Shown here: positions 24,456 to 24,665 of the stretch, one piece after another | Position numbering within the stretch: position 1 is the stretch's first letter | Layout of the letters: the number at the start of each line of letters is the position of its first letter | Assembly: GCA_030524105.1 (NCBI GenBank) | Contig: JAUNHE010000005.1 | Span: forward strand, 62,001 to 126,000 | Reading direction: 5' to 3' | Length of the DNA: 64,000 nt | Source: Rothia sp. (in: high G+C Gram-positive bacteria) | GTDB taxonomy: Bacteria; Actinomycetota; Actinomycetes; Actinomycetales; Micrococcaceae | Notes under the pieces: model-generated | What the model saw: only the letters and a program-made list of their open reading frames with translations | Databases searched by the model: none | Told to the model about the DNA's origin: nothing | Translations under genes and position numbers: made by a program

Positions 24456-24665
24456 TCGTTATCTAACGAACGAAAAATTCCCAGCATTGGGAACACAAAA
24501 GTTTGAAGCTGAAAGGCATCAGACTATATGCCGGGTTTTGCCGCACACCTGAGTCCGTCTACAGGGCAAAACCTTGATTAGATACCCAAATAGCATCTAT
24601 GGGTAGACGGCGACGCATTGAAGCCAGGGGACTGGACGAGCGTTAGGTGGCCTACTTGGAGCATT
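24456..24665 (+). ncRNA. Structured 5' leader of the Rpf gene (candidate cis-regulatory RNA)
   Basis: Successive hairpins: TCGTT/AACGA (24456-24469), TTCCCA-GCAT-TGGGAA (478-493), GGCAT/ATGCC (515-532), a 9-bp stem GGTTTTGCC/GGCAAAACC (534-573), TACCCA/TGGGTA with inner TAG/CTA (583-605), CCAG-GGGA-CTGG (624-635) and TAGG/CCTA (644-654), the last close to the GGAG site. CCGTCTAC in the big loop (555-562) is complementary to GTAGACGG (603-610), forming an H-type pseudoknot. Actinobacterial rpf genes often carry c-di-AMP (ydaO) riboswitches, but the ydaO core sequences were not found here. Confidence 0.5.

Follow-up and report, generated by a model that had tools for sequence, protein, structure and literature searches.

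The 210-base leader of the rpf gene in the Rothia genome analyzed here contains a real, conserved, pseudoknotted RNA, which, judging from sequence comparison, is a short and diverged relative of lysM-Actino (RF03090), an orphan RNA family; its class is therefore already present in Rfam and is not wholly new. We set at roughly 70% the probability that this leader works in cis as an RNA switch of the lysM-Actino type, in its short form. Little is known of the signal that sets the level of Rpf proteins, which bring actinobacteria out of dormancy. The leader RNA gives a defined handle on this signal in Rothia, Arthrobacter, and their kin: there is one gene and one RNA, the helices are known, and most of the same genomes examined contain true c-di-AMP riboswitches that can serve as controls. 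A common RNA has been hidden by the very high cut-off of its Rfam entry. All the positions given refer to the window, i.e., the whole 64,000-nucleotide stretch of DNA analyzed, in which the following features were identified (the evidence is given in brackets).

24444 to 24463, plus strand: direct-repeat box ATCGTTACAG/TATCGTTATC with GTTA repeats 11 nt apart, a candidate MtrA-like operator
24478 to 24493, plus strand: HP-a, upstream hairpin (fold; similar hairpins in relatives by eye)
24500 to 24525, plus strand: HP-b, hairpin directly 5' of the core (fold; stem near the core in relatives)
24524 to 24665, plus strand: lysM-Actino-like core RNA, short form (RF03090 match; 111.4 bits with model R1, the window sequence being one of the R1 training rows)
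24528-24531 with 24661-24664, plus strand: helix P1 (alignment, strand swap, fitted alignment)
24534-24542 with 24565-24573, plus strand: helix P2, the pseudoknot helix crossing P3 and P4 (covariation, strand swap)
24546-24550 with 24645-24649, plus strand: helix P3 (alignments, covariation scan)
24555-24562 with 24603-24610, plus strand: helix P4 (covariation, strand swap)
24583-24588 with 24600-24605, plus strand: helix P5 (TACCCA/TGGGTA), competing with the top of P4 (sequence; weak family-wide support)
24613-24616 with 24640-24643, plus strand: helix P6 (alignment, strand swap, fitted alignment)
24624 to 24635, plus strand: hairpin P7 (24624-24627 with 24632-24635) with the invariant loop GGGA at 24628-24631 (covariation)
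24658 to 24661, plus strand: Shine-Dalgarno sequence GGAG, the last base of which lies in P1 (sequence)
24666 to 25340, plus strand: rpf gene with a GTG start (Pfam PF06737 and PF01476)

No Rfam family was reported in the rpf leader at the curated cut-offs. When the covariance search was run with an E-value threshold, RF03090 matched positions 24524-24665 with 65.6 bits (E 2.1e-15), which is below its curated gathering score of 153.8 bits, so that an ordinary Rfam scan is silent on this leader. Positions 1-215 of the model were aligned end to end with the consensus helices kept, a block of 71 positions being absent, and the window RNA lies directly upstream of a LysM-domain gene, as expected of lysM-Actino. 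The short and long forms are linked by relatives: the 35 genomes of the same genus (own included) carry 7 long and 28 short forms, all of which precede an Rpf-LysM ORF, with RF03090 scores extending from 253 to 46.8 bits. The long forms are those of the six genomes scoring above the RF03090 cut-off and that of locus L008 (109.7 bits), and they contain between P3 and P4 an extra hairpin of about 70 nt, which folds in all seven cases. The lysM-Actino RNA reportedly originates from a 2017 paper; the literature collection searched contained no paper on lysM-Actino (RF03090), nor any on Rothia together with rpf and a riboswitch.

The product of the downstream gene (224 aa) carries a transglycosylase-like Rpf domain and a C-terminal LysM domain (Pfam), along with an N-terminus that looks by eye like a signal peptide, and scores 170.3 bits with the NCBIfam model ResusProRpf, below the cut-off of 180. 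Using the window Rpf as the tblastn query, an Rpf-like protein was found directly 3' of the RNA in 180 of 182 loci, some genomes being counted twice and six weak loci having been found via their Rpf gene; in the two exceptions, only 33 and 100 nt of downstream DNA were available. The 182 loci consist of 61 RF03090 loci, 80 pattern loci, and 41 further matches (35 from the R1 search and the six weak loci just mentioned, whose E-values go up to 0.025). The upstream control gave no Rpf match in the 177 loci with upstream DNA. Among the 52 phage records found, none covered 80% of the query, and the five listed match solely inside the Rpf gene.

The predicted core fold, in which P1 encloses P3, P3 encloses P4 and P6, P6 encloses P7, and P2 crosses P3 and P4 as a pseudoknot, is supported by comparative evidence, which is strongest for P4 and P7. 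In a MAFFT alignment of 32 rows chosen by the authors out of 61, 28 of the 38 pairs change on both sides, as compared with 15.1 in shuffles, and 87.5% of the cells are paired (P1 89%, P2 79%, P3 84%, P4 89%, P6 95%, and P7 94%), as compared with 31-41% with slid partners. Pairing fails in three P2 columns for 14-18 of these 32 rows, which may reflect a bulged base shifting the register, and one P1 column and one P3 column are unpaired in about half of the rows. P1 is nearly invariant here, two pairs never varying and one changing on both sides; further covariation in P1 came from distant genera in the model-fitted alignment. When 59 rows were aligned by fitting them to the model, 28 of the 29 nested pairs were found to change on both sides.

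Covariation was assessed against a tree-based null, which was written here after the idea of R-scape and is not R-scape itself, the seven long forms and duplicate sequences having been removed before the counts were made. With 84 sequences, eight pairs were obtained up to E 0.43 in the MAFFT alignment, all belonging to P7, P4, or P2, and nine pairs up to E 0.075 in the fitted alignment, belonging to P7, P4, P2, or P3. A structure-free scan of 141 sequences placed only pairs from P4, P7, or P2 in the top ten of 8,778 column pairs: nine of these ten have E-values up to 0.18, and six are P4 pairs (the eight base pairs plus an extension present in relatives). Taken singly, the P2 pairs have E-values of 0.05-0.18, apart from one at 4.5 (tree-based null), and the scans of 84 and 141 sequences single out no pair from P1 or P6. 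By strand-swap energies, own strands paired better than swapped ones in 95% of comparisons for P4, 87% for P2, 85% for P7, 80% for P1, 73% for P6, 63% for P3, and 62% for P5; in the linker between P2 and P4, a candidate pairing (P5a) gave stems of at least 4 in 66% of cases versus 44% with swapped strands. Almost no change is seen at the unpaired bases G24602, A24621, GGGA 24628-24631, and A24639, each of which is conserved in 140 or all 141 of the sequences, as a binding pocket or a tertiary contact would require.

The single-strand fold of positions 24464-24700 beats shuffled sequences with a z-score of -2.28, two of the 200 shuffles being as good. A single-sequence fold only 2.3 standard deviations better than shuffles might suit ordinary intergenic sequence with chance stems; this explanation is excluded by the comparative evidence (covariation and strand swap), and we take it to be extremely improbable. 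Chance folding was rejected on the basis of the covariation, as compared with both the shuffles and the tree-based null.

An earlier note on this DNA described a structured leader of the Rpf gene, and the RF03090 match, the covariation, and the Rpf-like protein in 180 of the 182 loci all bear this out. The pairing of eight base pairs that it pointed out is present and corresponds to P4, the best-supported long helix, with strong covariation in the comparative alignment of rpf leaders. The TACCCA/TGGGTA hairpin it listed is likewise present as P5 and overlaps the P4 strand by three bases, at the top of P4, as the proposed competition between pairings supposed, and its conservation in the family is weak (62%). 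The series of seven consecutive stem-loops, of which the note spelled out one, considers nested pairs only, although the RNA is pseudoknotted; the upstream hairpins HP-a and HP-b do fold in the window. The contact claimed between the structure and the ribosome site does occur, through the last Shine-Dalgarno base included in P1. The note had overlooked P2 and the lysM-Actino match, as well as P1 and P3, which are long-range helices.

At E 0.001, RF03090 matched 61 of 149 genomes (own included), of which six of the 149 lay above the cut-off. R1, a covariance model built here from 32 short forms, detected the RNA in 276 of the 395 Micrococcaceae genomes searched, representing 22 of 32 genera, the 32 training rows being included in these counts. 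A pattern scan of named genomes yielded at least 116 stretches; among the 80 matches listed were Rothia, Arthrobacter, Pseudarthrobacter, Paenarthrobacter, Tersicoccus, Kocuria massiliensis, one "Curtobacterium", and two unclassified Micrococcaceae. R1 matched all 80 of these stretches, as expected since the pattern was derived from the RNA. Genome G264 is the only one of 32 with two RNA matches, which score equally and lie on one contig (C1:9530-9663 and 4350274-4350407), possibly as an assembly end repeat.

In a sample of the class, five of 394 genomes matched, all five within Micrococcaceae. In a sample of the order (396 genomes), a second model of 59 rows, R2, gave 32 matches, 27 of which were among the 35 Micrococcaceae genomes listed, some of these 27 being training rows. 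The other five had E-values of 0.002-0.006, close to the chance expectation for some 360 genomes, and lacked a credible Rpf neighbor (best E 0.07). Both samples were searched with stricter filters and eight candidates scored per genome, so that weak relatives may be missed. Spread beyond Micrococcaceae was rejected, as neither sample gave a credible match outside this family.

At the Rpf loci of 20 of the 119 R1-negative family genomes, R1 gave five matches directly before the Rpf gene, in G056 (E 2.7e-7), G035 (7e-6), G082 (1.5e-4), G053 (2e-4), and G055 (1e-3), together with a marginal sixth in G060 (E 0.025). The E-values of the first five with R2 were all below 1e-7, these five being R2 training rows and hence not independent. 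No convincing RNA was found at the Rpf loci of the remaining 14 of the 20 genomes, nor any Rfam match at the gathering score at 20 loci of the genomes inspected, some of which encode non-orthologous Rpf-like proteins. The loci L121 and L125, among those with no convincing RNA, belong to a genus that we take to be Micrococcus from the Rpf sequence and the G+C content; if so, the founding Rpf may lack the RNA or carry a form that has diverged too far. The Rpf loci L124 and L128 (genus g10) showed no Rfam match at the gathering score and no R1 or R2 match, and may have a further type of leader.

The ydaO riboswitch (RF00379) precedes rpf genes in Streptomyces and Corynebacterium (PMC9960051). The earlier note had found no likeness to ydaO in the leader and had left two options, a highly diverged ydaO or a different RNA class. 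The Rfam covariance search agrees with the absence of likeness: RF00379 had no match up to E 10 in positions 24300-24800, the match to RF03090 at 65.6 bits, under its threshold, being found instead. In the same genome, a single RF00379 was detected at E 0.001 (61.8 bits; G000:C11:60254-60412, locus L001 1501-1659), which precedes a gene for an NlpC/P60-like secreted protein, as labeled from reading the sequence. The first option was rejected, RF00379 being silent in the leader and the true one lying elsewhere in the genome; the second was right, although the class is already an Rfam entry, and the control of resuscitation by a ligand is hypothetical.

RF00379 was present in 35 of 40 family genomes, including all 26 picked for an R1 match; among the remaining genomes of the 40, G035, G053, G055, G056, and G060 carry divergent or marginal forms of the RNA. 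In the 26 genomes, the RF00379 places are all away from the leader RNA, the nearest on the same contig being about 41 kb distant. No Rpf domain was found near RF00379 at the 30 places examined out of the 90 matched: among the 29 ORFs that were readable, seven had an NlpC/P60 motif and none an Rpf motif, several had M23-like ends by eye, and a few may be in the wrong frame. The window Rpf gave one weak tblastn match at these 30 loci, to the LysM part (L161, E 0.003), with no Rpf domain.

A c-di-AMP sensor of another architecture, doing at the rpf gene of Micrococcaceae what ydaO does in Streptomyces and Corynebacterium, is an unlikely alternative. Such a sensor would occupy the same kind of gene and the same position as ydaO in other actinobacteria (PMC9960051), and c-di-AMP is probably sensed in the 26 R1-picked genomes, since all of them have RF00379. 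However, the leader has no similarity to RF00379, the RF00379 places lie elsewhere, and for a genome to maintain two unrelated aptamers that sense a single ligand would be possible but costly; G035 carries a divergent form of the RNA yet gave no RF00379 match. The ligand is probably not c-di-AMP, and since no Rpf domain was found at the 30 RF00379 places examined, the rpf post in Micrococcaceae seems to be held by another RNA.

Of the Shine-Dalgarno GGAG, the 3' strand of P1 includes the final base, together with the three nucleotides that follow. When the pattern loci are set aside, GGAG occurs near the core end in 90 of 102 loci, and 62 of the 102 terminate in GGAGCA(T/G). In distant genera, P1 pairs with other letters in the fitted alignment, and its strand sometimes lies beside the Shine-Dalgarno sequence (by eye). 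The start codon is located -10 to +12 nt from the core end at 61 loci, the start codons having been chosen by the authors. Neither a terminator-like site on the plus strand nor a sigma-70-like promoter was found in positions 24200-24800. A start codon near the core end and the lack of a terminator fit translational control better than termination, and this reading is preferred because the outermost helix, P1, includes part of the Shine-Dalgarno sequence; the leader RNA probably acts as a switch on rpf translation.

In the mechanism proposed, the compact pseudoknotted fold would close P1, covering the end of the Shine-Dalgarno sequence and hindering ribosome entry. A ligand or some other signal might shift the balance between this fold (P2, P3, P4, and P1) and an open fold in which P5 would replace the top of P4; as regards the likely direction, a signal of an intact or growing wall would stabilize P1 and keep Rpf low. 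The nested alternatives in the window amount to -24.5 kcal/mol (P1, P3, P4, P6, and P7) and -30.2 kcal/mol (P1, P2, P5, P6, and P7). P2 and P4 can coexist solely in a pseudoknotted fold, for which the energy model gives no score; the minimum for nested folds, which includes other pairs, is -50.3 kcal/mol. Since the energies of the nested alternatives are not far apart, a switch between the pseudoknotted and open folds is plausible. Within positions 24658-24680, the nested minimum-energy fold pairs the Shine-Dalgarno region with CUUCC in the first rpf codons, and ACTTCC recurs across the genus, perhaps solely because of Thr-Ser conservation.

Whether a small molecule is the signal bears on another explanation, that of a protein-bound, autoregulatory, or thermosensing leader with no small-molecule aptamer. 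We consider it doubtful, although less so than a c-di-AMP sensor. The RNA occurs at one place per genome nearly throughout and in one family in the samples searched, like many protein-bound leaders, and always accompanies one gene, hence giving no clue to a ligand, which fits a leader responding to a protein or to temperature. The conserved unpaired bases and the pseudoknot kept across genera exceed what a simple sequestering stem needs, but protein-binding leaders can be equally elaborate. We give even odds to a more specific proposal: that of a Micrococcaceae-wide riboswitch class, built on a core of about 135 nt that contains the P2/P4 pseudoknot, which would gate the translation of Rpf in response to a small molecule linked to the wall or to dormancy and distinct from c-di-AMP, the lysM-Actino cut-off admitting just an enlarged minority form.

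Upstream of the core, a stem ending within about 6 nt of it was found in the 45 bases 5' of the core at 57 of 61 loci, by a crude criterion and without a shuffled control. The box at 24444-24463 reads ATCGTTACAGTATCGTTATC; it is the single match in the window at three mismatches, and its core pattern has no other occurrence in the genome when two mismatches are allowed. A GTTA pair spaced by 11 nt was found upstream of the RNA at 29 of 61 loci (own included). The box resembles the Rv2524c DNA fragment used in an MtrA binding study (PMC10609481). Elsewhere in the window, a SAM-IV riboswitch was detected above the Rfam cut-off at 33917-34027 (86.2 bits).

Three known systems can be compared with this leader. 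The rpfB RNA switch of Mycobacterium tuberculosis is also a structured leader of an rpf gene, but as described (PMC6009663), it is transcriptional, has a terminator, and is restricted to a subset of mycobacteria, whereas in the Rothia leader no terminator-like site was detected on the plus strand and the RNA meets the Shine-Dalgarno sequence. The ydaO riboswitch sits before actinobacterial rpf and other wall-hydrolase genes (PMC9960051), whereas this leader has no RF00379 match and the RF00379 of its own genome and of the relatives examined precedes other genes. As compared with lysM-Actino (RF03090), the window RNA is missing 71 consensus positions, located between P3 and P4 at the place of the extra hairpin of the long forms, and the printed Rfam consensus line shows no pairing for P6 and the crossing P2. 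It shares with this family the nested helices P1, P3, P4, and P7, as drawn in the cmscan consensus line, the conserved blocks CCGCAC, GGGGAC, GAGCG, and GGCC...GGAGCAUU, and the site directly 5' of a gene for a LysM protein.
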